Shown: piece by piece, positions 3,929 through 22,305 of the stretch
Layout: each line of letters opens with the position of its first letter
Numbering within the stretch: the first letter of the stretch is position 1
Origin: Brevundimonas naejangsanensis DSM 23858
GTDB taxonomy: Bacteria; Pseudomonadota; Alphaproteobacteria; Caulobacterales; Caulobacteraceae
Direction: 5' to 3'
Assembly: GCF_000421705.1 (NCBI RefSeq)
Contig: NZ_ATXN01000002.1
Coordinates: 1,178,001-1,242,000 of the forward strand
Length of the DNA stretch: 64,000 nt
The notes under the pieces: generated by a model
The model's database searches: none
Told to the model about the DNA's origin: nothing
What the model saw: the letters and a program-made list of their open reading frames with translations, nothing else
Made by a program: the position numbers and the translations under genes

Positions 3929-3933
3929 AGGGA
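3929..3933. repeat. Left target-site duplication AGGGA
   Basis: Five bases, AGGGA, flank the left transposon end directly and recur at 19403-19407 immediately after the right end. Five-base duplications are the rule for Tn7-family transposition. Confidence 0.85.
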
Positions 3934-4058
3934 TATCCGGACCACTTAAGAGCGGGTCACCGAAGGCCGATAGCCGCTGCGTCTAGCCGGCTCTGACTAA
4001 CTGGCGCGACCACCTAAGGGCGGCTCAAATCCGCACGAGACCACCTAAGAGTGGCTTA
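3934..4058 (+). repeat. Transposon left end with three TnsB-type sites
   Basis: Three related 19-bp sites in the same orientation: 3941-3959 (ACCACTTAAGAGCGGGTCA), 4009-4027 (ACCACCTAAGGGCGGCTCA) and 4040-4058 (ACCACCTAAGAGTGGCTTA). The wide spacing resembles the three separated TnsB sites of the Tn7 left end. The remaining 4059-4280 up to the recombinase shows no gene or clear signal. Confidence 0.8.
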
Positions 4059-4280
4059 GTCGCTCGCCCCTAACATCATCGCAGCAATATGTCAGTGCTC
4101 AGCTTACGCCCGCGAAGCGCCATGCGTGAGTGATGGATGCGCGTGACCGCGTCGGCGGGGGCAGCTGGGAGATTTACTGTCGAACTGTCGCAAATCTAGA
4201 AGGTCTGCCCTGCAAGCGTCGAGCAGCGGTAAAAACATCGGCAGCGGATGAGGGATCCGCGAAAGCTAAAGGGTAAGTCG

Positions 4281-5678: not shown

Positions 5679-5785
5679 CCGCGTCTATTACGCGCCAGCA
5701 ACGGACATTGACCGTGCGCCGGACAACGGACCATCGCTAGCCGATCCGACGAACAGTCGCTGCTTGGCGAGCCGGCAGAGGCAGC

Positions 5786-6400: not shown

Positions 6401-6443
6401 CGGCCGACCATTGCCGAAGCAGCAGCCGTCGGTACCTCCAACA

Positions 6444-8408
6444 TCAGGGGAGAAGTGCGTTGAACGTCGCGAAAACCTTCTCTGCTCGTTCGAGAGTCTT
6501 CGCGACGGCTGGAGACTTGCTTTCGAGCACCTTCGGATTTCGGATCAGCCACGCGGCCGGCGTAAAGTGATCGAAAGTCGGGACCGTATCGGGCAACACG
6601 TTGAAGGCAGCTTCCGCTTTCTTCAGCAGGCGGGTCGTATTCAGATCAGCCTCGTCCAAGGTCTTGGTGGTGAGAAGATGGCTCTCTGGAACTTGGAAGG
6701 CAGCGTTGATGATGGACACAAATATCGACGGATCGAACAGGTCCTCGATGTCGGCCTCAGCTGCGTCGACGAAGTCTGCGATGGAATAGAAGTGGCCCGC
6801 CTTTAGGACGTCGCTCCGTTTGAGGTCTTCGATCTTCCGCTTGTCGCCCTTCGCCTCATCCGACAGCGCTGCCACATTGAGCTGATTAGCGCTGAACAGG
6901 CTGACAAACGGGCGGATCTTGTCGATGCCGCCCGCCGGACACAGGACCCATCGCGGATCGAGTCCGGTGCGTTGACGCCTGTTCAACGCGTCGGAGAGCG
7001 CCTGCAGGTAAAGAATGTCTCCCGGTCCCTCGACGAGTAAGGTGTTCTTCCCAACAAACAGAGACTGGCTGATTTCGTAGCCGAGCGCGCCCTGCAGCGG
7101 AAAAACCGTATCGGGGTCTCGGCCGAGGACATCTTCTCGCACCTTCGTGCCAATCGGCACGCGTCGCGGTCCCTTCAGCTCGACTTGGTCTTCAACAATC
7201 CTAACGGATGCTAGGTCGTCGGCCGGGACCATGAATGGCGAGTGTGTCGAGTAGATGATCTGGTGATGGGGTGCCAGCTTCTCCGCAAAGAAGCGAAGAA
7301 GGTCAGCCTGCGCCTTGCCGTGTAAGGTTAGCCCCGGTTCGTCCAAGAGCAGGACGACGGGCGACGTCTCGTCCTTCACTTGGGCGAACTTTACGAGGAA
7401 GGAGAAGAACCAAACGAATCCGGCGCTCCGTTCTGAAAAAGGGGTATCTACCCTATGCAAGCGGTTCTCGATACGCGCCCTGGCTATGGTCCCGCTGTTG
7501 AAGGGGGCCGGGTCGCCCGGCCTCGCTTGCTCGACACGCACAGCGACGTTCAAGTCTGGATTCTGGGTCCAATATTCGAGAATCTGATCCGTGATATTGT
7601 TGGAAGCTGCCTGAAGCTTGGCATTGAATGTCTCGTAGGTTTGGACACCTGCGATTTCGTCAATGCTGACGCCAGCATACTCTAGAAACTCAGCGAAAAG
7701 CTTTTGGCCGCGGTGAGCGTCGTTGTCGATTGTGTCGTTGGCGATCAGCTGGCGCGTCTGCTCGATCTGAATGGCACCGTCCATTCGGTCATAGGACGAG
7801 AAATACATAAATTTCGGCAGCCGCTTAGCTAGGATTGCCTTCACCCGACCCGTGGCTGATCCGTTCTTGGCAAGATCAGCCTTCAGAGCTTGCTGGCGCT
7901 CTGAAAGCGCGGTCATGCCGTTGAGCGTTTCGATAAGAGCTGTTGTCGTTCCAGCAGTCGACAATACGGCCACTTCGGACTCATCGAGATTATGTTTACT
8001 GTAGAGAAATTTTAGCACCACGCCGAAGTCCAAATCGAATTGGAATTCCGGAGCCTCACCGTACGAACGTGACACCTCGACCCGGTCGCCTCGGAAAGCT
8101 CCTGGACCAACTGCGAGTGCGATGGCCGCTAGGTCGGATCCCTCAAGTTTCCAGCTCGTTGAAACCGCGACAGCGGCCGCAGACAAATGCAGTTCGTCAT
8201 ACTTCAGCAATGAAGCTCTGGGATAATCGCGTTCTTTATCCAATACGGCGGGCGTGGCGGAATGAGGATTGAGCGCGGCAAGCGCCATGAGTACGGCGCT
8301 TTTTCCGGCTTCATTCTTTCCAACCAAACACGTCACCTGCGAGATGGCGAACTCTCCCGTATCCATTGCAGACCGGAAGTTCGTGACGTGCGCTCGCTCG
8401 AGAAGCAT
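6444..8408 (-). CDS. OLD-family ATPase with TOPRIM nuclease domain
   Basis: A 654-residue protein with an ABC-type ATPase joined to a TOPRIM nuclease, the layout of OLD-family (overcoming lysogenisation defect) proteins, many of which defend against phages. Walker A is GKNEAGKSA near residue 30; the signature and Walker B region is VVLLLDEPGLTLHG, followed by the STHSPF switch histidine. The TOPRIM domain begins at LLVEGPGD (catalytic Glu) and continues to LSDEAKGD (acidic pair), about 455-535. No UvrD-like helicase is adjacent, so it is not a standard Gabija pair. It heads a two-gene leftward unit with the HEPN-like gene, and is cargo of the transposon. Confidence 0.85.
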   Translation of the reverse strand: MLLERAHVTNFRSAMDTGEFAISQVTCLVGKNEAGKSAVLMALAALNPHSATPAVLDKERDYPRASLLKYDELHLSAAAVAVSTSWKLEGSDLAAIALAVGPGAFRGDRVEVSRSYGEAPEFQFDLDFGVVLKFLYSKHNLDESEVAVLSTAGTTTALIETLNGMTALSERQQALKADLAKNGSATGRVKAILAKRLPKFMYFSSYDRMDGAIQIEQTRQLIANDTIDNDAHRGQKLFAEFLEYAGVSIDEIAGVQTYETFNAKLQAASNNITDQILEYWTQNPDLNVAVRVEQARPGDPAPFNSGTIARARIENRLHRVDTPFSERSAGFVWFFSFLVKFAQVKDETSPVVLLLDEPGLTLHGKAQADLLRFFAEKLAPHHQIIYSTHSPFMVPADDLASVRIVEDQVELKGPRRVPIGTKVREDVLGRDPDTVFPLQGALGYEISQSLFVGKNTLLVEGPGDILYLQALSDALNRRQRTGLDPRWVLCPAGGIDKIRPFVSLFSANQLNVAALSDEAKGDKRKIEDLKRSDVLKAGHFYSIADFVDAAEADIEDLFDPSIFVSIINAAFQVPESHLLTTKTLDEADLNTTRLLKKAEAAFNVLPDTVPTFDHFTPAAWLIRNPKVLESKSPAVAKTLERAEKVFATFNALLP

Positions 8409-8702
8409 GGGTTGGTTTCCTCTCCGGCTCTAGATGGCCGCGTTGCAAGAACAACAGACCGCACAACCGCAAGAGTCAACGTTCACTGAACGAAGAATGT
8501 TACGGACGAACCCTTAGTCGATCGATTGGGCAGACGATTGTGTCGATGTGCTTCTGATGATCGAGGATCCGCCGCTTGGTGACTCTGGCTTGGGGTGGTG
8601 CCTGCAACAGTTGTTGGGCTTCACCGAGGCTGCAGCGATCTGACTGTCCGCCTGCTTGATGGACTTACGCCAGACCAGGCCGCGGAGGCGCAGACCATGG
8701 TT
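8409..8702. other. Intergenic gap between OLD and HNH genes
   Basis: 294 bp lie between the start of the OLD gene and the end of the HNH gene. This stretch must hold the OLD promoter (minus strand) and the end of the tns transcript. I see no convincing open frame, strong hairpin or repeat. Confidence 0.4.
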
Positions 8703-9068
8703 TCAATCCACCTCCTGGCGTCCGACTACGAAGGTTTGAGGCCTGTGCATTTCGAGCTGCCAACGCGCGGTCGCGGCGGGAGAGTAGATTCGCTCCAAAA
8801 CCAACGCATGCCAAATGCGATCACACCCCGTCGGCGGATCTGATCCTCGCCGCATGTTGCAGGCGAAGTGTTTGAGCAACCCGTTGATCAGACCGTGCCC
8901 ACCACCTCGGCTCTTCTGCACGATATGATCATAGGTCGGATAGTCAGAACGGTCTCTCGGCAAACCGCGCTTCAGGGTCATCGGCTGACCGCAACCTGCA
9001 CAGCGCCCACCCTGCGCCCAGTGCAATATCTGGCGCTGGCGGACCTTTCGTTTGGCATCCTTGCTCAT
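8703..9068 (-). CDS. Small HNH endonuclease at end of tns operon
   Basis: A 121-residue HNH-fold protein. A zinc knuckle CAGCG (about residue 24) leads to the core YDHIVQKSRGGG and then HFACNMRRG, matching H-x-N/H positions of HNH nucleases. It starts 11 bp after the tniQ stop on the same strand, so it is probably the fifth gene of the tnsA-tnsB-tnsC-tniQ transcript. Its function could be a nuclease that assists transposition or protects the element, or unrelated cargo riding on the operon; the sequence does not decide. Confidence 0.7.
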   Translation of the reverse strand: MSKDAKRKVRQRQILHWAQGGRCAGCGQPMTLKRGLPRDRSDYPTYDHIVQKSRGGGHGLINGLLKHFACNMRRGSDPPTGCDRIWHALVLERIYSPAATARWQLEMHRPQTFVVGRQEVD

Positions 9069-9079
9069 CGCCTAGCCAT

Positions 9080-11083
9080 TCACCCCGGCCGCGGTCGCTT
9101 TTCGCCCATAGAAGCCTTGACCCAGCCCCCTCGTAAGCCTCTAGGCTGGAGCCCTGGCCAGCGCTCCACCAGTGTCCTTCGCTCGGAGGCCAGGGTGTTC
9201 ACTATCCTCTCGAGATCAGAGCGAAGATAGAACCCCCGACCAAGGCCGGGCTCGATGGGATAGGCTTCGATGAGACGCCATAAGCCACGAGGTTCGACTT
9301 CCAGCCTTGCAGCCGCTTCCCGCGTGCTCATCCAGTGGCATCCGAAAGCCTCAACCCTGATGCGCTCGTAACTCGTGGGCGAGACCCACTGTCGCGGCGC
9401 CAACAGGTCGCGTTCCCGCAGCCAAGAAATTTCTACGGCGGAGCAGTTGAGATAGTCCATCACTTCGCCTGGCGTCATAGTCGGCGGCGCAGAGCTTCCC
9501 GAACTCTCATACAGGACGGTTAAAGGGGATCGGGAACCTGGCCCACCTGCGACGAACTCTCGGGCCGCGAGGCGGGCCATCGAAAGCGTACCGCGTTCGT
9601 GATGGGAAGAGGCCGCAAATACGAGACCGCCGGGCAGTTCCCGCGAGAGAGCTGCCTTGATTACCGCGGCCCAAGGCTTGTCTCTGCCCCCAACGGCCGT
9701 GAAAGCTTCGCTGAGCGAAATCCATTCTCGCGATGGCGGAACAAGTGGGAGAGCCGCTAGCCAATCAGCAATCTTCTCAACGTCCTCGGCGCCCACCCGA
9801 TGGTCGCCTCGCAGGAACATCGAGAGCTCACTTGGCTGAGGCTGCAGGATGTTGAGCGCAACAAGTTGCGGGATTGCATAGAGAGGCAGACCCAAAAGCT
9901 GCGCGGCACGACGGGCGCTCATCCCAGCCGTCAACTCCGCCCGCATGCCCTCTACAACATGGGTGTCGAAAAGGTACTGCTTACGCTGCGTGCCTGAGCT
10001 CGACAGCGGGGTGAGAAAGCCTGCTTCGACAAGGCGTCCCACGTCGCCTGGCGGCACGCCAAGGACGGAAGCAGCACCTCGCGAGTTCAACTCGCCCGGC
10101 GGCGGCCGACGGTCCTGCTTCACCAACATCAGCGGGCAATCGGCGAGGATTTCGATCAGCGCCTGTCGGACCACGGGCACGGCGGTGTCCCGAGAAATCC
10201 GCGCCATGACGCCGTATAGCTTATCGCGCTCGCCAGGCGACCTTTGGAGAAGGTCCCACCTCGACTTCGGGTATTCGAGAACGAAGCTCACAGCTTCGCA
10301 AAGCGCCCGATGACCGACAGGTGCGTCGTCCATGTCCAGCCCAGCGTCAGATACAAGTTGCCAGGCTCGCACGATCGCGAGAACAAACTCATAGACGTCC
10401 GTCTCGCAATGCAACGGCAAAGCAGCGGGCACGCGGCGCATCGCAGCAAGCCGGATCTCCGCACTTTCGTCGAACAGGTCCGCGAGCCAGCGAAGATTCG
10501 GCCGGTGATGTTTGGCGACCTTGTCCGAAGCAGCCGAGACCAAAGGCTCACGACAGTGCCGGCACTCTCTTAAGCTATCGGCGCGTGGCCATGTCAGCGG
10601 CTTGCCGCAGAACCGGTTGGGACAGGAGCGGATCAGGATGTCCCAGCTCACCGGGCAGAAGTCGAAATGGCGGAGCATCCAGACGGCTTGGTCTCCGTCC
10701 GATTTGGCCAGTCCGGGCCTGACCCGTCGACGCGCTTGGTCAATGAGGTGGGGCCGCAGGAATACTCCGCCCAACCGACGACGCCCGAGTTCGTCCAAGG
10801 GCTCAGCGCCCCAGAGCTTGGCAATAGAGTGTGGGGGCGCTCCAAGCAGCATCTCGATCGCAGGAAGCGACCGTTGTAGTCGGCCAAGGAAATCACCGGA
10901 TATCGAAAGATCGATTTCGGCCTGTCGCAGGAACTGCACAGGAGACTGCAGGTGGTTTCGCTCCACGCACCTGACGAGGTAACTCAGAAGCGTTTCGCCG
11001 GCGGTCGGCTCAACGGGGAAGAGCAAGCTCTTCCCCGCATACGACCGAGCCTCACACGGAGCCAAAGTCGAACCATCAGCCAT
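9080..11083 (-). CDS. tniQ: TniQ/TnsD-type target selector
   Basis: A 667-residue protein that should choose the insertion site and recruit TnsC. The N-terminal TniQ domain (about 18-180) has FPVEPTAGETLLSYLVR and a zinc-binding set, C143, C154, C159, C174, C177 (CPVSWD, CPNRFCG, CRHC). The long remainder shows several helix-turn-helix-like units, such as RGAASVLGVPPGDVGRLVE, MSARRAAQLLGLPLYAIP, MTPGEVMDYLNCSAVEIS and STREAAARLEVEPRGLWRL. That is expected of a sequence-reading TnsD rather than a short guide-dependent TniQ. The start is the ATG at 11083, overlapping the tnsC stop by 8 bp. Its likely target is the adjacent tRNA-Arg gene (inference from position). Confidence 0.85.
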   Translation of the reverse strand: MADGSTLAPCEARSYAGKSLLFPVEPTAGETLLSYLVRCVERNHLQSPVQFLRQAEIDLSISGDFLGRLQRSLPAIEMLLGAPPHSIAKLWGAEPLDELGRRRLGGVFLRPHLIDQARRRVRPGLAKSDGDQAVWMLRHFDFCPVSWDILIRSCPNRFCGKPLTWPRADSLRECRHCREPLVSAASDKVAKHHRPNLRWLADLFDESAEIRLAAMRRVPAALPLHCETDVYEFVLAIVRAWQLVSDAGLDMDDAPVGHRALCEAVSFVLEYPKSRWDLLQRSPGERDKLYGVMARISRDTAVPVVRQALIEILADCPLMLVKQDRRPPPGELNSRGAASVLGVPPGDVGRLVEAGFLTPLSSSGTQRKQYLFDTHVVEGMRAELTAGMSARRAAQLLGLPLYAIPQLVALNILQPQPSELSMFLRGDHRVGAEDVEKIADWLAALPLVPPSREWISLSEAFTAVGGRDKPWAAVIKAALSRELPGGLVFAASSHHERGTLSMARLAAREFVAGGPGSRSPLTVLYESSGSSAPPTMTPGEVMDYLNCSAVEISWLRERDLLAPRQWVSPTSYERIRVEAFGCHWMSTREAAARLEVEPRGLWRLIEAYPIEPGLGRGFYLRSDLERIVNTLASERRTLVERWPGLQPRGLRGGWVKASMGEKRPRPG

Positions 11084-11996
11084 GGCGCCGCTTCCTGAAC
11101 GGGTTGTGGTCGATGAACGACTGCTCCACCGCCCAAGCATCTACCGCCCAGGAGAGGTCGGCGATCTCAAGCCGGGCGGCGCCTCGACGAACGGCGACCT
11201 CAATCGCCGCATGCATCAGGCGGTTAACCCGCCCGACCACCCCCTTCGACACATCAAACAGTGCGGCCAGTATCTCCGGTTCGTTGAGGCCTGACTGTTG
11301 GCCGAAGATGCCCTCGTCGACCAAGACCTGATCGAGCCGAGTGACGTAGCCTGCGAACAGCTTCTGATCCCGCCCACTGCGGGCCTTCAACGGATGAAGG
11401 TCACAAGGGGGCAGCAGCCGGCCATTCAGTTGAAGGTTCCTCCTGAACATCGGAAGCGCCTCGTCCGTGCCCAGAAAGGCGATAGGGATAAGGCCTGTAT
11501 CGAGCATCCCTTTGAGGGTGTCGGTTACGTCGTTCCGCAAGCCGTTCCGGTAGTTGAGATGCTGCACCTCATCGACGATGAGCAACTCCGTCCCGAACCG
11601 CTCAAAGCAGCTTAGCACTCGCCGCTTGAGCGTTAGCTCATTGCCGTAAGAGGCATATGGATCCCGAAACGCCTCAAGGATCAGGACCATCAGCTTCTTC
11701 GATGTCGTGTGCCGTTCGAGATCGACCTTAATGACCGGCACATACTCAGGCGTCCGGGGTCGACGCGTCTCGACCAAATCGACGTAGGCCTTTGCCGCAG
11801 TACTCTTGCCGGATCCCGAGGGGGCAAGGACACGCAACCCCATCTGAGGTTCTCCGCGCGTGCGCCGACCGATTTTTTGTAGGTAATCCAATCGGCCATG
11901 GAGACTGACGTGTGGCGGATAATGGATGAACACCGATCTGAAGCGGGCGACCATGTCAGCCGCCTCGTCATTGAGCTCCGCTGCGGTCCGGTTCAT
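11076..11996 (-). CDS. tnsC: TnsC/TniB AAA+ transposition regulator
   Basis: A 306-residue AAA+ ATPase linking the target selector to the transposase. Walker A is APSGSGKST (about residue 60), Walker B LLIVDEVQHL, then sensor-like FLGTDEALPMF. The length suits the TniB/short-TnsC group; the 555-residue Tn7 TnsC has long extensions that are missing here. I prefer the ATG at 11996, which overlaps the tnsB stop as ATGA and has GGGAGG seven bases upstream; an in-frame ATG at 12011 is less likely. Confidence 0.9.
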   Translation of the reverse strand: MNRTAAELNDEAADMVARFRSVFIHYPPHVSLHGRLDYLQKIGRRTRGEPQMGLRVLAPSGSGKSTAAKAYVDLVETRRPRTPEYVPVIKVDLERHTTSKKLMVLILEAFRDPYASYGNELTLKRRVLSCFERFGTELLIVDEVQHLNYRNGLRNDVTDTLKGMLDTGLIPIAFLGTDEALPMFRRNLQLNGRLLPPCDLHPLKARSGRDQKLFAGYVTRLDQVLVDEGIFGQQSGLNEPEILAALFDVSKGVVGRVNRLMHAAIEVAVRRGAARLEIADLSWAVDAWAVEQSFIDHNPFRKRRHG

Positions 11997-14179
11997 TGGA
12001 ATGCCTCCCAATGCTCGTCACTGGAGGACGCAACGGCGGTCCAACCAGATTCGGTCGAAACCTCGGAAACCGGCTCAGCCTTCGGCACTCGCTTGGTCTT
12101 CGGCTTTCCGCCGCGTGCCGGACGGACAGGTTTGACATGGTCGTCTGTTCGTTCGGGCGCCAATGCGACGGTCGGTATGGTTGGCGCCATGCCGTCGTGC
12201 CGCGCCTCCGCGTATTCGATGCGGAGGCTTCCCTTGGCCATTGCTTCAACCTTCGGTGAAGCCAACAGACGGGCTTGGGTCCGCTTGTTCCGGGTGAGCA
12301 CCCGAACCGGCGTTTCAGCCTCGATTTCCCTCCTCAGCTCGATGCGACGTCGACGCCTGTCGTCCTTCGTCGAGTCTTTCTCCTCGCGGGACCAGGCCTC
12401 GATCAGGTCGTGACGCCACTTGCAGAGCCCTTCGGCATACTCCGGGTCGGTACAGGGCAAAGCGACAAACTCGCCATTGCCCGGACACCAGATATAGATC
12501 TGGCCGAGGTTGGCAGGATTGTATTTGATCACCACCTTGGCGGTAGCAGAACCCTTCCGCTGTCCCCTTCGTGGCTCACGCCTCGCGAGATCCTCAAGCA
12601 GGCGACCCGTTATTGCTGGATCCTGGTACTGAAGATTGAAAAGGTTCACGCCAGAGCGCGTCAGAGTGGCGTCGCGGCGGGCGCCAAGCATTCGATCAAG
12701 CTGACTATCGTCACCGATCACTTGTACCCCACCCTGCTCCCGAACTTTTCGGTCCCACGCTGTCACCGGAGGTTCCCCCAAGGTGGAGTGCAGCTCCTGA
12801 TGATAGATACCGATGGCGGAGATCAGGAGGTCTTCAGCCTGCTGGAGGGTGAGGACCGCATCCTTCCGCGGGTCGAGCCCCCATTCCCGCAGTTGCGCTA
12901 CCGGAAAGGTCCCCCCGGGCATTTTGCGGTGCAAGCGGGTGTTCAAGGTGCCGAACAAGCGCTCGATCACAGCCTTGTAGGTCGGGGACCGCACGGGGGC
13001 CCAGCGAACACTGACGCCCATATCGATCATGGCCGACTCAAAGGAAGTTCCGGTGAACTCCCAGCCGTTGTCGACGACGATCTCGTCGAACTTCCCGTGA
13101 ATGCTGACGAGCTCCGGCTTCTCAGGGAAACGGTCCCCCATCCGAATTTTGGGCCGGTTTGCGCGCTTGATGCACTCTGTGACCGAGTAGAGTGAGGGCG
13201 GTTCAAAGCTCAAAACCCAGCCAACAATGCAGCGCGTGTAAACGTCGAGGATAATCGTGAGCCAAGGCCGCCCGAGCAGCCTCCAGCCCTTGGAGTTGAT
13301 GACGACGTGATAGTCGACCTGGGTGTGGTCCATAGCGCCCAGCATCAAAGGACGTTGGGAGGCCAGCCCTTGACCACAGGCCTTGAACCTTTGGTCAGCG
13401 ACCTTTTTGCCGAACTTCGCAGCCACCGTTTCGTAGCATTCGATCGACCGAACATACTTTCGAAATGTCTCTTTCGCAGGCACAGGCACTGTCATCCATC
13501 TGGACGAACGCTGGCGAATCCATTTGTTCAGTGCGCCGAGATGTTCACAGAGATCGTCGTAGGCGTCGCCGAGGGACTTCTTATGGTCGGCCCAGTAGGC
13601 CGTCGCCTCCTCATGCATCCGTCGGCGCACTGATGCCGGAAGGCGATGCTTGCGCGGCACCTTCCCAGACATGTTGACCATCGCCTTCAACGGTCGCTCG
13701 CCGACGTCGCCGCGATCGGCAAGCCATCTGCGAACCGTCGTCGGCGACGGGGGTTTCTTGCCGCTGAAGAACTCTGGCTTCTTGCTCCAGACGACCGCCA
13801 ATGCCTTGCGTATCCCGTCGGCGCTTCGAGAGAATGGTGCGATACGATCCAGGGAGGTGATCACTGCCAAACGGAAGGTCGCCGACGGATCGCGCGACAC
13901 GATCATCTCGTAGTCGCCTCCGAAGGCGAGAGCGCCTTTTCGAACTGACGACTTCGCTTGCTTGAGGTCGATACGACGAGCCTGGCCGGCAGCGAACTGC
14001 TCCACGAGCCAAGCCGAACTAGGGCACACCAGATCGTTCTGTTCGCCCCTCACCTGCAGCGGCGCTCCGGTCCGTTCGCATCGCAGGTGGAGCAGCCCAT
14101 TGCCCATCACCTGATCAAGGACATAGCGGTTCGAGCCGATGGCCCAGGTTTCACCGGCGGTCAGTCGAATAGTGTTCAT
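11993..14179 (-). CDS. tnsB: TnsB DDE transposase (Mu/IS481-like integrase core)
   Basis: A 728-residue transposase that binds the element's terminal repeats and catalyses 3' end cleavage and strand transfer. The rve-type catalytic core has D284 (MDHTQ), D370 (VVDNGWEF) and E406 (AVIERLFGT), with the classic 35-residue D-E gap. The N-terminal 250 residues are basic and helical (end-binding), and the Mu-type C-terminal beta-barrel follows the core. The ATG at 14179 overlaps the tnsA stop as ATGA. Confidence 0.93.
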   Translation of the reverse strand: MNTIRLTAGETWAIGSNRYVLDQVMGNGLLHLRCERTGAPLQVRGEQNDLVCPSSAWLVEQFAAGQARRIDLKQAKSSVRKGALAFGGDYEMIVSRDPSATFRLAVITSLDRIAPFSRSADGIRKALAVVWSKKPEFFSGKKPPSPTTVRRWLADRGDVGERPLKAMVNMSGKVPRKHRLPASVRRRMHEEATAYWADHKKSLGDAYDDLCEHLGALNKWIRQRSSRWMTVPVPAKETFRKYVRSIECYETVAAKFGKKVADQRFKACGQGLASQRPLMLGAMDHTQVDYHVVINSKGWRLLGRPWLTIILDVYTRCIVGWVLSFEPPSLYSVTECIKRANRPKIRMGDRFPEKPELVSIHGKFDEIVVDNGWEFTGTSFESAMIDMGVSVRWAPVRSPTYKAVIERLFGTLNTRLHRKMPGGTFPVAQLREWGLDPRKDAVLTLQQAEDLLISAIGIYHQELHSTLGEPPVTAWDRKVREQGGVQVIGDDSQLDRMLGARRDATLTRSGVNLFNLQYQDPAITGRLLEDLARREPRRGQRKGSATAKVVIKYNPANLGQIYIWCPGNGEFVALPCTDPEYAEGLCKWRHDLIEAWSREEKDSTKDDRRRRRIELRREIEAETPVRVLTRNKRTQARLLASPKVEAMAKGSLRIEYAEARHDGMAPTIPTVALAPERTDDHVKPVRPARGGKPKTKRVPKAEPVSEVSTESGWTAVASSSDEHWEAFQ

Positions 14180-15093
14180 TGGATTTCCTCCTGCGGCCCT
14201 TCGACCAGCGTCACGGGGGTCGAGCTGTCGGGGATGTTGGTGAGGTCGAGCCTGACGATGCGGCCGACCATCATGGCCTTCAGCTTGGCCAGGCCGCGCA
14301 GCCGTTCATCAAAGCTGTCGGCCAGCTGACCGAGTGGCAGCTGACCATGCTGGCGCAGTTGTCGGACGACCTCGAAGACCTCAGCGTCGCTGAACTTTGT
14401 GAAGGCCCATGACTGGACGTCCTCCACCGCACGATAGAAACGGGATGGCTCGGTCAGGTCGGTGCGGAACAGGATATGGAACCGCCAACCGATCCGATCG
14501 CAGATTTCGCGAACCGCCTGAAGTTTCAGCCGATACTCCGGATCTCTGAGGTCCCCGGGATCGCGCTTGATTTCGATTACTTCGACCGTTCCATCGGCAC
14601 GGAGCGTAACCGCGTCCGGCAGATATGCGCGCTTGATGCCATCAACGACGAACTCGAACCGGAACGGTTGTGCCCGGTAGTCGACGACGTCGGTGTCGAC
14701 TTCACAGAGCATGAAGAACGCCTTTTCGAGCATGCTCTCGTAGGGCTGCCCGCAGCCGGTTTTTCGACTGGCATAGACACCTGTTGTGATGATGCGCCGG
14801 CCGGTGACGATGGTCCTGATGGATCCGCCAGACTTCGACAAAACCATCGTAGCAGTTGCGGAAAGGCTCTCCCAAGCCTCCCTGTTTTCGTCGCAGGCCA
14901 AACCGAGTAGCGCCTCATTTAGGGGCGCTGGGTCTCTTGCGGGCGTGCCTGCCCGCGGATGAACGATGTCCATCTTGATCTCCACATTTGGGAAGTTCGC
15001 TGGGTTCAGGGCGAGCGAGGGCGTCACGCGTCTCTGAGAGAACGCGTTGACTTCTTGCGCGGTGCGGAGGATCATTTGCCAAGTCGTCGGCAC
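14176..15093 (-). CDS. tnsA: TnsA endonuclease of Tn7-like element
   Basis: A 305-residue PD-(D/E)xK nuclease that cuts the 5' strands at the transposon ends, making transposition cut-and-paste. The catalytic set is visible: E119 (YESMLEKAFF), D160 (YLPDAVT) and the E174-x-K176 pair (VIEIKR). The C-terminal part (about 200-305) fits the TnsA C-terminal domain that contacts TnsC. First gene of the tns operon. The start is a GTG at 15093; an ATG six codons later (15075) is an alternative, and neither has a strong ribosome site. Confidence 0.88.
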   Translation of the reverse strand: MPTTWQMILRTAQEVNAFSQRRVTPSLALNPANFPNVEIKMDIVHPRAGTPARDPAPLNEALLGLACDENREAWESLSATATMVLSKSGGSIRTIVTGRRIITTGVYASRKTGCGQPYESMLEKAFFMLCEVDTDVVDYRAQPFRFEFVVDGIKRAYLPDAVTLRADGTVEVIEIKRDPGDLRDPEYRLKLQAVREICDRIGWRFHILFRTDLTEPSRFYRAVEDVQSWAFTKFSDAEVFEVVRQLRQHGQLPLGQLADSFDERLRGLAKLKAMMVGRIVRLDLTNIPDSSTPVTLVEGPQEEIQ

Positions 15094-15361
15094 AACGATT
15101 GGGGACTTGATCCTCCGACCGAGCCTTGGGTTTACGCCCGGGGCTCGCGTCGTTTCTGCGCTAAGCCACAGAATTGACGTCTGATTTTCATGGCGGTCGG
15201 GACATTGTTGCTCCTGTTTTCAGTTAGCCCGTTCGAATCTAAGGCCTAGCAGGAGGGTCTTGGAGGACTCACCGCCGGCTCGAAGAGTGTTCCAGAGCGA
15301 TGAAGCGGAGTCACAGGGATTTTTTACTACGCCAACCGAGCTGCAATCGGCCGGTCAGCTA

Positions 15362-15383
15362 AATATATACTATGCTATATATT
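15362..15383. promoter_or_regulatory. AT-rich palindrome upstream of tnsA
   Basis: AATATATA-CTATGC-TATATATT forms a perfect 8-bp inverted repeat in an otherwise GC-rich setting, about 270 bp before the tnsA start. It could be an operator or a promoter -10 region for the tns operon. No regulator gene in the element obviously pairs with it. Confidence 0.35.
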
Positions 15384-15699
15384 CTGAATGCTTACGAACG
15401 ACATAGAACGGCGGTCTCATTTGAGAGCTCCGCGACCCAAAAAAGAGGCCTGATCCGACCAGCAGTTCGAAGCTTGGCCGCGCGAGCGATCGCTGACCCC
15501 ATCTTGCGTCGGTTCAACTCTGCGCCATTAGCGGACGTTGACGCTCTGCCAAAAGGTGGACGTCCCCCTCCTCGGCGCAGGATCGGGCGCGCGCTACCTA
15601 TGCTACACGAATCGAACGATCGGACAGGCAGCAGCTGTTAGGCACCTTCCGATAACGAGGCGCCCACCATCAGACATTGACTTGGCGACACGACCAGAC

Positions 15700-15955
15700 C
15701 TTGAGCATGAGTGCATCATTTCGATGCCATTCCTCCGAAAAAGCTCCAGGCCTCAGGAGAGTCGTCTAGCGCCCCCGTCCACGGTTTCTCCACCAACGAT
15801 GCGCCAGACGGTCGATTGGCTAGCTGCTGCGCCGAGCCGTGTGTGCCTGACAACGCCAGGTCCCGGATCAGACCAACACTGCCCCAAAGGGCAGTTTCGA
15901 TCCTCACTCGTCATCGGCCACCCGAAAGCGACCGCATTCGGCGCAGCAACCAACG
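15700..15955 (-). ncRNA. Candidate DRT3-type non-coding RNA region
   Basis: Downstream of the second RT on its strand there is a perfect 7-bp hairpin (ACTGCCC/GGGCAGT, 15878-15884 with 15889-15895, loop 4). A second small stem follows (CCTG/CAGG, about 15846-15860), then at once an alternating CACACAC run (15845-15839). DRT type 3 systems have two RTs plus a structured RNA, and, from memory, an ACACAC template in that RNA has been reported. The boundaries are guesses, and a six-base run can occur by chance in this length. Confidence 0.35.
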
Positions 15956-15960
15956 GAACA

Positions 15961-17919
15961 CTAGGTCCAAGCGTAGACAGGACGCAATGCCTTTCGCTGC
16001 AACTGGTGATCGACGCTCAACCCGGACCAATCTGCAAAACCTGCGTAGCTGCCGAATTCAGCCCATGTCGCCAGCCTAGGCTCGCCACCAAAAACGGCTC
16101 TGAAGAGTGACCGCTTGTCATGAGGGCCAACATCCGGTGACGCCAGGTAATCGATGGCAATCAGATACTCTTCTGTGTCACGCCATATATCGACATCTGC
16201 TGCCAAGACTCTGTCGCGCGCGCGTTGTTTCAACATGCCGATCTCGACTTGAAATTCGCCGGCCTGCTTTCGAATGCAAAACATCAAAGTGATATAGGCG
16301 AAATAGGTCAGCCGAGGCTCGTCCAGCAGTCGCTCTAAGCAGTCCCTGAACGCGGTCGAAGCAAGGAAATCATTCCCGATAAAATGAGCCCCGCATATCA
16401 GGAGATTAAACAGCTCGACATTATCCTCCACCTTCGCCCCGTCCGAGGGTGTCTGGCGGCGGATTAGACTCGAGAGGCTGTCCGATATGAGATGGATCGC
16501 AAGATCATATTGCTCGGGGGGCATGACATCACGAGACCGTTCTACCACCTGGACAAGCTGGCAGAGTGAGTATGTCGTACGAACTCGCAGATCCACTGCG
16601 CACACGTAAAGAGCCGTCTCTAAGGCGCTTATAACCACCGATGAGTACGGATCTTGCACGTCCTGATCTGCTGTCTCGCTCATTACGTTCAAGCACCGGC
16701 TAATCAGCCGTCGGAGCCTAGACAGCAACCAGCCTGAGAGGTTGGCGAACTGGATCTCATGTTCGGCCACGATCAGTCGGATATGGTTCAGCCGCGCCCG
16801 GATGGCGCGAGCCTGCTGCGCATTCTCGTTGGAGGCCCCACCTCGACCTGCAGCCCTCTCTTCGGCAGCGTCCTGCGCTCGCATTCGCGTGACTGCCGTA
16901 GACACCTCCCGCAGCGTGGCGGCGACGTGTTCCCGCGCGATGGAAAGCCCGGACACAAATGGCCTGCGACTGGTCGCAACCTTTCTGTCGTTAACGTAGA
17001 GCTTGTAACGTTCAAGATGGTGTCGGATGCGCCCTTCGAGAAGGTCAGCATGCTCGATTGACCCCGTGAATACGAAGTAGTCATCGACGTACCGTCGAAC
17101 GTCGTAATGCCGACCATGTATCAGTCCACGCTCCAGCATATCAGCCCTCACGCAATCATCAATGTCTTGGAATATGATTTCGGCAAATACTCTCGATATC
17201 TCCGGACCCACTACAATGCCATTGGTCTCGTTGTAGTTTGCCCTCTGCATCAACCCATCAAACGCGGACTCAAAACTGTATGTCGATCGATGCTCTTTCG
17301 CAAAAGACTTGTCTTTTACAGCCCACGTGATTGAATGGGTGTAAATATTGTAGAAGCATTTCGACACATCGATAGTTCGCATGACTGGGTGTCGTTCTTC
17401 TAAGCGAATGTATTCGCGAGAAGAGACGAATTTTCCCAAAAGATTGTACTTGCCATAGACGAAGTATGACGTCATGTGGGATGGGTCGGGCTCGCCTTCG
17501 GCGGCGAGCATTTGCGGAATGCCCGACCTGGACTGATCGTTTTCAACAGAAACCTCCGTCGTGAACGGAGACGCCAGTGCGGCGGGATGGCGTAGCGAAA
17601 AGTCGCCTCGGCTACAGTGCGCCAACATTCCCATCGCGTGGAGTTCGTAGAAGTCAGCCATCTCCCTTTGGAGCAGCGGGTGGACAACGCTGAGCGTCGT
17701 TGTTCGCTCGCGATCCTTGGTAATCCCGTAGTTGTACGGGATGGTGTAGGCAGGTCTTCGGACGGCTACCCGATCGAGGACATCCTGAACCGCTGCAGTT
17801 GGTGTGGTCGAGAGACCAGCGTGCAGGCGGTCATTCGAAAAGATGACCGGCAGCTCGTACGGAAGTGTTTCGGTCAGGAGCGCTCTATGCCTGAGCGACT
17901 TCTTCGACTGGTCAGACAT
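15961..17919 (-). CDS. Second reverse transcriptase (Drt3b-like, UG8-type)
   Basis: A 652-residue unknown-group reverse transcriptase. Motif A is RTIDVSKCFYNIYTHS (D184); the B-like motif is NGIVVGPEISRVFAE; the active site is YVDD at 277-280. The C-terminal 300 residues are helical with no recognised domain: there is no maturase, retron or Cas1 fusion. The ATG at 17919 overlaps the stop of the first RT by 8 bp (ATGTCTGA), so the two are co-translated. A 425-residue YSDD RT followed by a 650-residue YVDD RT matches DRT type 3 (UG3 plus UG8), an anti-phage system that also needs a non-coding RNA. Assignment to that type is by architecture and motif resemblance. Confidence 0.75.
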   Translation of the reverse strand: MSDQSKKSLRHRALLTETLPYELPVIFSNDRLHAGLSTTPTAAVQDVLDRVAVRRPAYTIPYNYGITKDRERTTTLSVVHPLLQREMADFYELHAMGMLAHCSRGDFSLRHPAALASPFTTEVSVENDQSRSGIPQMLAAEGEPDPSHMTSYFVYGKYNLLGKFVSSREYIRLEERHPVMRTIDVSKCFYNIYTHSITWAVKDKSFAKEHRSTYSFESAFDGLMQRANYNETNGIVVGPEISRVFAEIIFQDIDDCVRADMLERGLIHGRHYDVRRYVDDYFVFTGSIEHADLLEGRIRHHLERYKLYVNDRKVATSRRPFVSGLSIAREHVAATLREVSTAVTRMRAQDAAEERAAGRGGASNENAQQARAIRARLNHIRLIVAEHEIQFANLSGWLLSRLRRLISRCLNVMSETADQDVQDPYSSVVISALETALYVCAVDLRVRTTYSLCQLVQVVERSRDVMPPEQYDLAIHLISDSLSSLIRRQTPSDGAKVEDNVELFNLLICGAHFIGNDFLASTAFRDCLERLLDEPRLTYFAYITLMFCIRKQAGEFQVEIGMLKQRARDRVLAADVDIWRDTEEYLIAIDYLASPDVGPHDKRSLFRAVFGGEPRLATWAEFGSYAGFADWSGLSVDHQLQRKALRPVYAWT

Positions 17920-19189
17920 TGCGCCATGCTTCCCGTGCCTGAGCCAGACGTTCATTGCTGAGGCGGACCAGGCGTCGGGATTTGAAGCCCAGACGGAACG
18001 AAATTCCGTCCAACAAGATCAGGTGCCGCAAGCCCATTGCGGCCCGCAGGCGAGCAGAGAATTCGCTGTGTCGGCTTCGCAATAGATGGTGAGTGAAGGT
18101 GTCCAAGGCTCCAAGCTCGGGCGGCTCGACGCAATTGTATGATCTGTGATTATAAATTCCACAGCGTCTATAGTTGTAGAATATACCGGTGCGCACACGC
18201 TTCCTTGGCCCCCAAAAACTCACGCCGTGTCTTTGGAGCTGGTGATTAGAAGAAAGCAATCGTAAGCGATCGAACAGAAGGTTAGTATTACCGTCTTTCA
18301 TGAAGCGCTTCAGAGACATGATCACACGAGTCTTCAAGCGTTTGATTTTTTCAGGCGCGATGGTGACGACGATCGTTCGGGATTCTCTGCTACCGGTCCC
18401 CGACGTCGTCGAAAACCTGTAGCCGAGATAGTCGAGATGGCGGGAGTTTGACGTGCGGTCGACAAAAGCCGTCTCAGAACGCTTTTTGGCGTGAAACAGC
18501 ATGCCGGTAGGCAGGGCGCCGACCATATCGTTCGCTATGCCTGCCGCGCGGTCGTAGCAGAAGACGACGATGTCATCGGAGTATCGGAAATAACGGTAGA
18601 CGCCTGGCATGGCGCGCACCCGACGGTCGAACTGCTCCATCGCGAGTTCTGCGAGGACACCCGACAAACCCACTCCTCGGGGCAAGCCGAGAACGCCCGG
18701 CAAGCAATGCGCATCGAAGTATTGCTGCAAAAAGGTTCGTACGATGCGCGGGAGCGAGGTGTCGTAGACAAGCCTCTCACGAAGAGCGTCTGCGTCTATG
18801 GACTCGTAGAATGAGGTCACATCCCTCCTGATGACCGTGTATGGCGTGGCATCGAACATCGTCTCGATGACCCCGCTGACGACACGGTCCCTGTTGGGTG
18901 GCGTTATTCGGAAACGCTTGGCGATGTAGCCGGCTAAAACTCGTAATATGATTGACCGTTCATAGGATGGGTAAGTGACGCAGGGCTTGCCGCGCGCGCG
19001 TCCGCGCACAAAAGTACTGAGATCTACGGCTCGATTGCCTATGTCATCAGCGAGTTGCTCGGCAATGGCTTGGCCTTCAGCGGCAACATCGATGTCAAAT
19101 CGATGGGAGTCGCCTGCGCGCATCACGCGCGATAAGGCGCGTACTGAGAATACCGACTTCAAGCCAACGCCTCCCCGCCTGACGTGCAT
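17912..19189 (-). CDS. First reverse transcriptase (Drt3a-like, UG3-type)
   Basis: A 425-residue reverse transcriptase. Motif A is IRRDVTSFYESID (D123); the B-like motif is GLPRGVGLSGVLAELAM; the active site is YSDD at 203-206, followed by LDYLGYRFS, the usual motif E region. The thumb-like C-terminus is basic. No endonuclease, maturase or protease domain is fused. It is the first gene of the pair, starts about 165 bp from the transposon's right-end binding sites, and overlaps the second RT. Likely an anti-phage DRT system carried as cargo. The start at 19189 is the first ATG; later starts would still leave motif A intact. Confidence 0.75.
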   Translation of the reverse strand: MHVRRGGVGLKSVFSVRALSRVMRAGDSHRFDIDVAAEGQAIAEQLADDIGNRAVDLSTFVRGRARGKPCVTYPSYERSIILRVLAGYIAKRFRITPPNRDRVVSGVIETMFDATPYTVIRRDVTSFYESIDADALRERLVYDTSLPRIVRTFLQQYFDAHCLPGVLGLPRGVGLSGVLAELAMEQFDRRVRAMPGVYRYFRYSDDIVVFCYDRAAGIANDMVGALPTGMLFHAKKRSETAFVDRTSNSRHLDYLGYRFSTTSGTGSRESRTIVVTIAPEKIKRLKTRVIMSLKRFMKDGNTNLLFDRLRLLSSNHQLQRHGVSFWGPRKRVRTGIFYNYRRCGIYNHRSYNCVEPPELGALDTFTHHLLRSRHSEFSARLRAAMGLRHLILLDGISFRLGFKSRRLVRLSNERLAQAREAWRNV

Positions 19190-19282
19190 CGGGATGGTTG
19201 ATGGCGCAACCCAGCCGCGTCAAGGTAGCCTGCGCAATCGGAGACTCCGCGCCGCCGGGTGACAATGCGACGGACAGCGGAC

Positions 19283-19310
19283 GTTCTGACATTCCGCTAT
19301 GAGTCAGAAC
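19283..19310. promoter_or_regulatory. Inverted repeat upstream of first RT
   Basis: GTTCTGAC (19283-19290) and GTCAGAAC (19303-19310) form a perfect 8-bp inverted repeat, 94 bp before the RT start. AGCGGA/TCCGCT nearby can form an alternative stem. It may be an operator of the RT operon or part of a structured leader RNA. Confidence 0.35.
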
Positions 19311-19355
19311 CGGCTGCTACGAGGCTTGGCGCGAAATTGCGATCGGCTCTCATGT

Positions 19356-19402
19356 TGAGCCACTTCTAACTGGTTTTGAGCCAGTTCTAAGTGGTCCCGA
19401 CA
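19356..19402 (-). repeat. Transposon right end with two TnsB-type sites
   Basis: Reading inward on the minus strand, ACCACTTAGAACTGGCTCA (19395-19377) and ACCAGTTAGAAGTGGCTCA (19374-19356) lie in direct orientation with a 21-bp period. The close packing resembles the Tn7 right end. The two also form an imperfect 14-bp hairpin (12 matches, 7-base loop). The outer terminus is TGTCGG. Confidence 0.82.
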
Positions 19403-19407
19403 AGGGA
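19403..19407. repeat. Right target-site duplication AGGGA
   Basis: AGGGA follows the right terminus ...CCGACA and repeats the five bases at 3929-3933. One base (19408) separates it from the tRNA-Arg CCA end. Confidence 0.85.
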
Positions 19408-19408
19408 A

Positions 19409-19485
19409 TGGCGACCCCGGGAGGACTCCAACCTCCGACCTCGGCTTTAGGAAAGCCTTGCTCTATGCAGCTGAGCTACGGGGCC
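19409..19485 (-). tRNA. tRNA-Arg (anticodon CCT)
   Basis: A 77-base cloverleaf with an encoded CCA. The acceptor GGCCCCG pairs with CGGGGTC (one G-U), the D arm is GCTC/GAGC, the anticodon loop TTCCTAA gives CCT (reads AGG), and the T arm is GGAGG/CCTCC around TTGGAGT. The 27-43 pair is an A-G mismatch. The gene is intact. The Tn7-like element is inserted just past its 3' end, so the original downstream sequence (now at 3933 and leftward) is displaced by 15 kb. Confidence 0.93.
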
Positions 19486-19770
19486 ACGCGCGTCTGCCTA
19501 AAGGAGGTTGGGGCGTCAGGGAAGCCCCTGCGAAACCTGAACGCGTGACGGCGACCGTGCGAGGGTTCGGCCTTGTGGTTAAGGCGTGTTAAGCTACTAT
19601 ACCTAGTATGGAACAAAGCCTGAATCGGCGAACGTCGCTGATTCGGTCATGATTCGTTTCGCCCGTGTTCCAGGGGCTGGTAAGGTTCCGCTTACCAATT
19701 CTTTTTCGTTCATATCGAGATCGCCGCGCCGCTTGTGAAAGCAGGCGGGGTTCGCCACCTTGGGCCGGTC
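19486..19770. other. Promoter region between tRNA-Arg and helicase gene
   Basis: 285 bp between two divergent genes. It should hold both promoters. A short AT-rich run near 19590-19610 (CTACTATACCTAGTATGG) is a possible -10 region for the helicase gene. No open frame in it looks real. Confidence 0.4.
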
Positions 19771-22305
19771 ATGAGCGACCGTTCCGCAGGCATGGCCCTT
19801 TCGCGCGTCACGGCGATCCTGGGGCCCACCAACACCGGCAAGACCCATCTGGCGGTCGAGCGGATGCTGGGTCACGCCTCGGGCATGATCGGCCTGCCGC
19901 TGCGGCTGCTGGCGCGCGAGATCTATGAGCGGATCGTCAAGCGGCGGGGGGCGGCCTCGGTCGCCCTGATCACCGGCGAGGAGAAGATCGTCCCGCCGCG
20001 TCCCGCCTTCTTCGTCTGCACGGTCGAGGCCATGCCGCTGGAGCGGTCGGTCGACTTCCTAGCGGTGGATGAGATCCAGCTGGTCGCCGATCCCGAGCGC
20101 GGCCACGTCTTTACGCAAAGACTGCTGCACGCGCGCGGCCGGTTCGAGACCATGTTCCTGGGCGCCGGGACGATGGCCCCGCTGATGCGGTCGCTGGTTC
20201 CGGATGCGGAGATCGTGACCCGCGACCGGCTGTCGATGCTGTCTTACGCGGGGTCGAAGAAGCTGACCCGCCTGCCCCGGCGCAGCGCCGTCGTCGCCTT
20301 CTCGACCGAGCAGGTCTACGCCATCGCCGAGCTGCTACGGCGTCAGAGAGGCGGGGCGGCCGTAGTCATGGGCTCGCTTTCGCCCCGCACCCGCAACGCC
20401 CAGGTCGAGCTGTTCCAGTCGGGCGAGGTGGACTTCCTGGTCGCCACCGACGCCATTGGCATGGGGCTGAACATGGACGTGGACCATGTGGCCTTTGCGG
20501 GCCTGCGGAAGTTCGACGGGCGGCGCACGCGCTGGCTGCACGCCGCGGAGATCGGCCAGATCGCCGGGCGGGCCGGGCGTCACCTGCGCGACGGCACCTT
20601 CGGCGTCACGGGCGAGGCCGAGGAACTGGACGAAGACCTGGTCGAACAGGTGGTCGATCACCGCTTCGATCCGGTCGAGGCGGCCGAGTGGCGCAGCGGG
20701 AGGCTGGATTTCGACACGCTGCCCGACCTGCTGCGCTCGCTTACGGTGACGCCGGATCGGCACGGGCTGCGGCTGACGGCGCAGGCGCTGGACGAGACCC
20801 TGCTGCGGCGCTTTGCGGTCGATGAGGACGTCAGGAAGATCGCCCGCTCACGCGGGGCCCTGATGCGGCTGTGGGAGGCGTGTCAGTTGCCCGACTTCCA
20901 GAAGACGACGCTGGACGAACACGCCCGCCTGTCGAAGGAGATCTTCACCGCCCTGACCAGTCATGGCCCTCACGGGAGGGGCGGCCGCCTGACCGAGGAC
21001 TGGGTGGCGCCGCGCTTCAATGATCTGGATCGCGACGACGGCCAGATCGACCAGCTTTCGGCGCGGCTGTCTGGGGTGCGGACGCTGAGCTACATCGCCA
21101 ACCGGCCCGACTGGATGGCGGGGGCGCAGGAGTGGCGCGACAGGACCAAGGCGCTGGAGGAACGGCTCAGCGACGTGCTGCACGAACGGCTGACGGCGCG
21201 TTTCGTCGATCGGCGCACGGCGGCCCTGATGCGGGCGCTGAACGTGCGCTCCGACGTGCTGGCGGGCGTGGCCGAGGACGGCGAGGTCACAGTCGAGGGC
21301 GAGGTCGTCGGTCATCTGGACGGCGTCTGCTTCACCGTCGATGCGGGCGGATCGGCGCTGGCCGACCGCGCGCTAAGGCAGGCGGCGACGCGCGCCGTGG
21401 GGCCGGAGGTGGCGCGGCGGCTTGGGCGGCTCGCGGCCGACGAGGACGCGGCTTTTTCCGTTACGCCGGACGGCGGGGTGCTGTGGAACGGGGCCCTGAC
21501 CGGGCGCATCACCAACGAAGACCCCTTCTCGCCGCGCGTGCGGCTGCTGGGCGAGTTGGGGCCGGTCCCGGCGCGCGAGCGGGCCGAGCGGCGCATGGAG
21601 GCCTGGCTGGCGGGCGAGGCCGGGCGGGCGCTGAAGCCGCTGAAACGCCTGCGCCACGCGATCGAGAGCGGCGCCCTGACCGGCCTGCCGCGCGGGCTGG
21701 CGTTCCGCCTGATCGAGGCGGGCGGCCTGATCCCCCGACGCGAGGTCGAGCGCGACCTGGCGGCCCTGAGCCAGCATGAGCGGCGCACGCTGAAGACCTT
21801 CGCCATCCGCGTCGGCGCCCATTCGGTGTGGCTGCCCGGCGTGATGAAGCCGCGGGGGGCGACGCTGGCGCAGGCCTTCCTGCCGCGTGAGGCGACGAAG
21901 GGGCTGGCGGGTGAGGGCCTTCTGCCCCTGCCCGAGCCGGCGCCGTCGGCGCGCGCCCTGTCGGCGTTCGGACGCCGCGCCGTCGGCCGTTGGACCGCGC
22001 CGGTCGAGGCGCTGGAAACCTTCGCCGAGACTCAGCGCGCTGCGGGAAAGGCGCCGCTGTCGGATCAGGCGCTGAACGACCTCGGCTGGACGGCGGATCA
22101 AGCGAAGGCGATCCACGCCGCCCTGCGCACCCCGCGCGCCGAACGGGCGCCGCGCCCCGGCAAGCCCACGCCGCCGCCCAAGGATTCGCCCTTCGCCGCC
22201 CTGGCTCAACTGACCCAGCCGCCACGGCCCGCCGCCAACCCCAAGGCGGCGCGCAGGCCCCGTCGGCGTCCTCGGCGGGCCCCGTCGGGCAAGCCCGCCG
22301 AATGA
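19771..22305 (+). CDS. SUV3-like ATP-dependent RNA helicase
   Basis: An 844-residue superfamily 2 helicase related to the mitochondrial degradosome helicase SUV3, common in alphaproteobacteria; it likely unwinds RNA for decay. Motif I is GPTNTGKTH close to the N-terminus, motif II is VDEIQL, motif III-like GAGTM, and motif VI QIAGRAGRHLRDG, all in the first 300 residues. A SUV3-type C-terminal region follows, and the last 60 residues are a basic, proline-rich tail. Start at 19771 (ATGAGCGACCG); an ATG at 19792 is possible. It overlaps the S4 gene as ATGA. Confidence 0.88.
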   Translation: MSDRSAGMALSRVTAILGPTNTGKTHLAVERMLGHASGMIGLPLRLLAREIYERIVKRRGAASVALITGEEKIVPPRPAFFVCTVEAMPLERSVDFLAVDEIQLVADPERGHVFTQRLLHARGRFETMFLGAGTMAPLMRSLVPDAEIVTRDRLSMLSYAGSKKLTRLPRRSAVVAFSTEQVYAIAELLRRQRGGAAVVMGSLSPRTRNAQVELFQSGEVDFLVATDAIGMGLNMDVDHVAFAGLRKFDGRRTRWLHAAEIGQIAGRAGRHLRDGTFGVTGEAEELDEDLVEQVVDHRFDPVEAAEWRSGRLDFDTLPDLLRSLTVTPDRHGLRLTAQALDETLLRRFAVDEDVRKIARSRGALMRLWEACQLPDFQKTTLDEHARLSKEIFTALTSHGPHGRGGRLTEDWVAPRFNDLDRDDGQIDQLSARLSGVRTLSYIANRPDWMAGAQEWRDRTKALEERLSDVLHERLTARFVDRRTAALMRALNVRSDVLAGVAEDGEVTVEGEVVGHLDGVCFTVDAGGSALADRALRQAATRAVGPEVARRLGRLAADEDAAFSVTPDGGVLWNGALTGRITNEDPFSPRVRLLGELGPVPARERAERRMEAWLAGEAGRALKPLKRLRHAIESGALTGLPRGLAFRLIEAGGLIPRREVERDLAALSQHERRTLKTFAIRVGAHSVWLPGVMKPRGATLAQAFLPREATKGLAGEGLLPLPEPAPSARALSAFGRRAVGRWTAPVEALETFAETQRAAGKAPLSDQALNDLGWTADQAKAIHAALRTPRAERAPRPGKPTPPPKDSPFAALAQLTQPPRPAANPKAARRPRRRPRRAPSGKPAE

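Follow-up and report, generated by a model that had tools for sequence, protein, structure and literature searches.

What kind of system do two overlapping reverse transcriptase (RT) genes make up, and what carries it, in the 64,000-nucleotide stretch of the Brevundimonas naejangsanensis DSM 23858 genome analysed here (contig NZ_ATXN01000002.1, positions 1,178,001 to 1,242,000; hereafter the window)? As judged from sequence, the pair and a candidate non-coding RNA (ncRNA) downstream of it form a complete type 3 defence-associated reverse transcriptase (DRT3) system, with a probability that we put at about 0.9. The pair is cargo of a well-delimited Tn7-like transposon. Membership in DRT3 rests on sequence, and what the system makes, what triggers it and its role in defence are inferred.

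Both genes are on the minus strand. The upstream one, drt3a (17912-19189), encodes an unknown-group 3 (UG3) RT of 425 amino acids with the motif YSDD, predicted to carry out RNA-templated poly(GT) synthesis. The downstream one, drt3b (15961-17919), encodes a UG8 RT with an alpha-helical repeat domain (652 amino acids, YVDD), predicted to carry out protein-templated poly(AC) synthesis. The length of 652 amino acids applies to a start at the second ATG, which makes the two reading frames share 8 bp (17912-17919); the longest open reading frame (ORF) gives 664 amino acids (15961-17955). These sizes, motifs and overlap had been given in a preliminary description of the locus and agree with the ORF coordinates, and its assignment of a UG3 and UG8 pair to DRT3 is borne out by profile searches. 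Drt3a scores 328.2 bits against NCBIfam NF041747 (equivalog cut-off 200) and Drt3b 563.4 bits against NF041748 (equivalog cut-off 350). PADLOC agrees, with 305 and 535 bits respectively, and other RT families score far behind the Drt3a and Drt3b models. The best PDB sequence match for Drt3a is 9z6y (2e-23), and the best for Drt3b are 26cz (4e-83) and 9z6y (2e-73), with phmmer scores of 283 and 251 bits along some 650 residues.

The two genes are neighbours in all 23 DRT3 loci compared. These comprise the window, seven of eight loci from one search, nine that were Drt3b-positive in genome samples and six plasmid regions (H1-H6, from 166 plasmid records; the others, among them H8 with its annotated drt3b, are not included). 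L004 was dropped as having the same strain label and match as L003, L001 and L014 as coming from the window's own genome, and matches below cut-off in the genome samples were dropped too. L008 and L009, in which the Drt3b ORF is cut short, enter neither the tree nor the counts of C-terminal tails and of RNAs given below.

Both RTs also match the general RVT_1 profile, which is what favours the view that they are RTs of some other type (group II intron-like or retron) placed together by chance. Given the equivalog-level matches, the constant pairing of the genes and group II scores of 53 bits (Drt3a) and 29 bits (Drt3b) against a cut-off of 300, we consider such an origin close to negligible. 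The absence of maturase, Cas1 and retron features noted earlier is matched by the profile searches: in the eight proteins scanned, both RTs included, all matches to models of group II introns, retrons or Cas1 stayed below the curated cut-offs. Placement with group II introns, which had been named as the outcome that would speak against DRT3, did not occur in these searches (328 against 53 bits for Drt3a, 563 against 29 for Drt3b). Below the cut-offs, a retron Eco8 effector model gives 31.6 bits (cut-off 250) with the OLD-like ATPase of the same transposon, and PADLOC, whose output is given without cut-offs, lists weak RT-Cas1 matches. Group II intron, retron and CRISPR-associated RTs are ruled out as identities by the profile scores.

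The third component, absent from the preliminary description, is a candidate ncRNA downstream of drt3b on the minus strand, known here only from sequence and predicted fold. Its core (15819-15954) is predicted to form a 17-bp closing stem around internal hairpins, with 15938-15954 paired to 15819-15835. The 3' strand of this stem starts 3 nt past an ACACAC (15839-15844, minus strand), the candidate RNA template for Drt3a, which stands 116 nt beyond the drt3b stop on the coding strand. The predicted fold of 15795-15960 has a free energy of -77.1 kcal/mol (z -2.68), and 2 of 200 shuffles were equal or better. ACACAC is present 3' of drt3b, at most 227 nt from the stop, in all 21 loci with downstream DNA read, compared with a background of 63 among 5102 stretches of 225 nt in the window (1.2%). 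In the same loci, the best duplex that the stop-codon region forms with the 32 nt following the AC run starts 0-5 nt from the run. Summed over the 21 loci, the true stem pairing amounts to -514 kcal/mol against a permuted mean of -373 (sd 17), and none of 20,000 permutations was as good, a figure that is not a strict probability because related loci share sequence. Rfam at gathering thresholds called tRNA only.

According to the available text of PMC13174585, the ncRNA of Escherichia coli DRT3 lies 3' of drt3b and contains the ACACAC from which poly(dTdG) is copied, and synthesis of alternating-repeat DNA on a protein template has been shown for that system. The GT/AC-repeat product named in the preliminary description agrees with this account. 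By homology with E. coli, Drt3a would copy the ACACAC of the ncRNA into poly(GT), and Drt3b, primed on its C-terminal Y661, would build poly(AC) with E34 and R255 (E22 and R241 in E. coli) as base gates. The poly(GT) and poly(AC) strands would anneal into double-stranded DNA, whose level would stay low through the action of a host exonuclease; once a phage disables that enzyme, the DNA would accumulate and arrest the cell. A strict poly(GT/AC) product is, by analogy, probable for the window system, and it is less firm than the identity of the system, hence the overlap of the rival explanations with the best one.

Conserved residues of Drt3b are consistent with this scheme. Numbering follows the E. 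coli DRT3b of PMC13174585, and residues of the window are given in the 664-amino-acid numbering. The position of E22 is Glu in 21 of the 23 loci and Asp in the other two, a substitution (E22D) with which Wang et al. found partial activity retained (PMC13174585, as far as its text is available). R241 is Arg throughout, and the YxDD of Drt3b is intact in 22 loci, L013 having YVDN. Of the 21 complete proteins, 20 have an aligned C-terminal Tyr, and L005 ends in Tyr two residues later. All four have their equivalents in the window, where YVDD is intact and Y661, at the position of the priming Tyr (Y666 in E. coli), is followed by AWT.

Several observations weigh against a complete DRT3 system working as in E. 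coli. The position of R71, which in E. coli DRT3b stacks on adenine, is Thr86 in the window, and in E. coli the R71A mutant retained part of its synthesis in vitro but its product was undetectable in cells, R71K doing better (both from the available text of PMC13174585). The predicted fold of the template region comes from one model. The true stem partner is the best in 10 of the 21 loci and not in the other 11: among 20 foreign partners, one did as well in L034 and L057, four in L002, L054 and L056, five in L012, six in L036, nine in L011, L033 and L037, and 15 in L055. A consensus-only scan of 15000-19500 for sigma-70-like promoters made a single call, on the opposite strand, with 1.8 expected. 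Finally, no RecB scored above cut-off in the host, the best match (96 bits against 696) lying in the ORF of AddA.

AddA itself is found in the host with 1175 bits to the alphaproteobacterial model (cut-off 861), and the nuclease that restrains E. coli DRT3 is RecBCD (PMC13174585, available text). Given AddA and no RecB above cut-off, the restraining nuclease in this host would be AddAB rather than RecBCD, unlike in E. coli. This host context raises the question of whether a guard model built on RecBCD extends to hosts with AddAB in that role. The host with AddA and the lack of R71 are the two modest surprises of the locus.

The lack of R71 is shared with a group of relatives. When 21 Drt3b proteins are placed in a maximum-likelihood tree (displayed from its midpoint), the window and five others split from the remaining 15 with support of 100/100; in this tree L031 has a long branch and the residue composition of the window departs from that of the alignment. 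The clade consists of the window, L002 (Methylobacterium), L057 (from the same order as the window), L003 (Xenophilus), L005 (Sphingomonas) and L031 (a Phaeobacter plasmid), and its members are 30-44% identical to the Drt3b of the window. R71 is absent from all six (Thr in the window, L002, L003 and L057, Leu in L005, Asn in L031) and kept in all 15 other tree members as well as in both cut-short proteins. At the middle position of its catalytic motif, Drt3a has Ala or Ser in five of the six (YADD, FADD or YSDD; L005 keeps Val) and Val in all 17 others. Position 199 of Drt3a, four residues before the Tyr of YxDD, is Arg or Lys in every clade member and Phe, Tyr or Leu elsewhere. Within these six loci taken alone, the true pairing of the RNA stem ranks first of 720.

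The shared loss of R71 and the accompanying changes in Drt3a speak for a reading in which the three parts of the system are the same and the Drt3b of the clade picks nucleotides differently, either making a looser poly(AC) or stacking the adenine on another residue. Set against it, both gate positions, E22 and R241, are kept and ACACAC stands downstream in all six clade members, and ACACAC calls for a poly(AC) partner; moreover, no single residue was evident as a replacement for R71. We consider this reading quite unlikely. A wider proposal, tentative and in our view unlikely, is that a deep, mostly alphaproteobacterial DRT3 clade, having lost the adenine-stacking Arg, selects dATP and dCTP through other contacts, with the Drt3a motif altered in concert, and is restrained by AddAB rather than RecBCD. 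If true, it would add a second natural way of making DNA on a protein template. A clade with both gates and without R71 offers a natural experiment to tell which residues the synthesis rule requires.

The locus could also hold a decayed or silent DRT3 copy, with non-functional genes kept by the transposon. In favour of decay, the genomes with a Drt3b match include no second member of the genus, and the left transposon terminus differs from the right one. Against it, both ORFs are intact across the full profile length, their catalytic motifs are intact and so is the predicted closing stem of the RNA, and decay appears very unlikely. Drt3b above cut-off is rare, being found in 5 of 385 genomes sampled at the level of the class, 2 of 398 at that of the phylum and 5 of 398 at that of the order, the window's own genome counted each time. 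Scanning viral contigs with Drt3b turned up 11 pattern matches, none of them a relative.

The assignment to DRT3 can be set beside the predicted protein folds, with the reservation that structural matches speak to fold and not to function. The AlphaFold2 model of Drt3a has a predicted local distance difference test (pLDDT) score of 86.2 from 11 sequences, and that of Drt3b 78.9 from 15 sequences, being weak at both ends and at residues 131-161 and 244-246. From residue 336 on, the Drt3b model consists of helices, that is, an RT followed by an alpha-helical repeat domain, as in the class-1 architecture. Its nearest match is DRT6 9wy8 (Z 21.9, root-mean-square deviation (rmsd) 3.3, 477 residues aligned), then DRT4 9vdo (19.6, 4.1, 475), UG15 9l9s (18.0, 4.0, 471), AbiP2 7r08 (17.2, 11.7, 356) and AbiK 7z0z (16.7, 4.0, 500); over the class-1 enzymes DRT6, DRT4, UG15 and AbiK, Z ranges from 21.9 to 16.4. 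The Drt3a model is nearest to the G2L4 RT 9d4s (Z 22.7, rmsd 3.0, 317 aligned), with lower scores for RTs of diversity-generating retroelements and group II introns, DRT9 9vma (18.6, 5.2, 348) and DRT2 9c0i (17.4, 4.0, 312). The solved DRT3 chains are absent among the fold matches listed (library to April 2026), which has no bearing on membership.

The transposon that carries the pair spans 15,469 bp (3934-19402). Its termini form inverted repeats (19 of 26 positions identical), and next to each lies a copy of the target-site duplication AGGGA, at 3929-3933 and 19403-19407. Three TnsB-site-like repeats form the left-end array on the plus strand (3940-3959, 4008-4027 and 4039-4058) and two the right-end array on the minus strand (19356-19375 and 19377-19396). 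With up to three mismatches, the repeat motif has five copies in the 3.16-Mb genome, all at the element ends, and the reversed control has none. On the left flank an empty site was not shown, the similarity of the closest relatives stopping about 130 bp before the insertion, and the boundaries are therefore claimed from the repeats and the target duplication. The attachment site is tRNA-Arg(CCT) (19409-19485, minus strand); one base separates its 3' end from the duplication, which places the element end 6 bp from the tRNA. The earlier claim that the pair is carried between tnsA and the right end of a Tn7-like element, next to a tRNA, is thus supported by the ends and the duplication. The left terminus (3934-3935) reads TA and the right (19401-19402, minus strand) TG, a difference that could affect mobility of the left end.

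The transposition genes are all on the minus strand. They are tnsA (14176-15093; Pfam Tn7_TnsA-like_N, 32.3 bits, cut-off 26.5), tnsB (11993-14179; Mu-transpos_C, 32.7 bits, cut-off 21.7; PADLOC TnsB, 2e-22), tnsC (11076-12011; Pfam TniB, 74.2 bits, cut-off 22.4, and AAA_22) and, following tnsC, a gene for a putative TniQ/TnsD-like target selector of 686 amino acids (9080-11140; weak PADLOC TniQ, 5e-5). Pfam rve in TnsB, with 31.1 bits, is 1.5 bits short of its cut-off of 32.6, and for the target selector Pfam gives HTH_17 only and no TniQ. Among the other DRT3 loci, 16 of 22 were searched with TnsABCD queries, without a match in flanks of less than 1 to about 9 kb (L010, L011, L012, L037, L054 and L055 were outside the search). 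Carriage of DRT3 by a transposon is thus seen in the window only, among the loci searched.

Other elements at the same tRNA-Arg(CCT) carry different genes in the slot that separates tnsA from the right end. In G892 (TnsB 64% identical; L120 2336-8131) this slot holds GajB and GajA, with PADLOC scores of 742 and 876 bits, on one contig. The slot in the more distant G1125 (TnsB 41%; L156 791-9904) holds Pycsar-like genes, namely PycC (576 bits in PADLOC) and a TIR effector (PycTIR 340 bits, TIR effector model 373), together with an E2-like protein, a tetratricopeptide repeat (TPR)/ATPase protein without a PADLOC hit and a helix-turn-helix (HTH) protein. GajB, GajA and PycC received no name from NCBIfam (E up to 1e-20), so the names Gabija and Pycsar rest on PADLOC; the only NCBIfam match to the TIR effector was CBASS Cap12 (87.5 bits, cut-off 450), and the run covered the proteins of G1125 other than the E2-like, TPR/ATPase and HTH ones. 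In G1055 some 2 kb separate tnsA from a homologue of PD-Lambda-4_A that scores 1100 bits (L122 10533-17521); this element is unproven as a case of the slot, its right end being on another contig. Two proteins tested in G1073 had no PADLOC hit. By eye, right ends were placed left of this tRNA in 5 of 20 loci (the window, G892, G1055, G1125 and G1128); the 20 are 19 of 30 from one search plus G892, which was picked for its TnsB, and L151 was too short to judge. TnsABCD queries had no match in the 17.8 kb fetched for G1128, which include a run of N. These elements point to one slot by the transposon right end, at one tRNA, filled by different defence systems. In G1143, one of the closest relatives compared at the left flank, the tRNA and copA are some 34.5 kb apart on a single contig; an integrase-like ORF beside the tRNA-Arg and phage-tail-like ORFs beyond were seen by eye (L158 1-19901), and there was no TnsABCD match.

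The transposon contains further genes. An OLD-like ATPase/TOPRIM protein (6444-8408, minus strand; PADLOC Old 7e-24, with AAA_15, AAA_21 and OLD-like_TOPRIM above cut-off) is a second cargo and possibly a second defence gene; no helicase gene was seen alongside it. An HNH-like protein (8703-9068, minus strand; below the Pfam cut-off) is 83% identical to the one in the G1073 element, and the adjoining TniQ/TnsD-like proteins are 34% identical, as if it had moved separately. Near the left end is a large serine recombinase (4248-5678, plus strand; Pfam Resolvase and Recombinase). Outside the element, a tRNA-Met called by ARAGORN at 21736-21813 lies inside a Suv3-like helicase gene, was not called by Rfam and is probably false.

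Compared with E. coli and the solved DRT3 structures (26cz and 9z6y/9z6z, of which 26cz appears to be the E. coli DRT3b of PMC13174585, judging by matching residue numbers), the window has the same order drt3a-drt3b-ncRNA, the YxDD motifs, E22, R241, the priming Tyr and ACACAC. Deng et al. 2026 is a further source, cited in the review PMC13314766 and in PMC13174585. The system of the window is distant from E. coli DRT3 and the solved chains, has Thr in place of R71 and YSDD rather than YVDD in Drt3a, extends three residues past the priming Tyr and resides in a host with AddA. It is most like the loci of Methylobacterium sp. J-026 (L002) and of a genome of the same order (L057 and L117), with which it shares 43-44% identity in Drt3b, the loss of R71 and a YAW[TSA] tail, and which, unlike the window, have no TnsABCD match within the fetched flanks. 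A search of the literature, in the text available, found no description of DRT3 within a Tn7-like element, and the word DRT is absent from the available main text of Benler et al. 2021 (PMC8649781) on Tn7-like carriers of defence genes. The element of the window resembles those carriers, as far as that text describes them, in TnsABC with a putative target selector, arrays of end repeats and insertion downstream of a tRNA, and 'defensive' reverse transcriptases are already named there among Tn7-like cargo.

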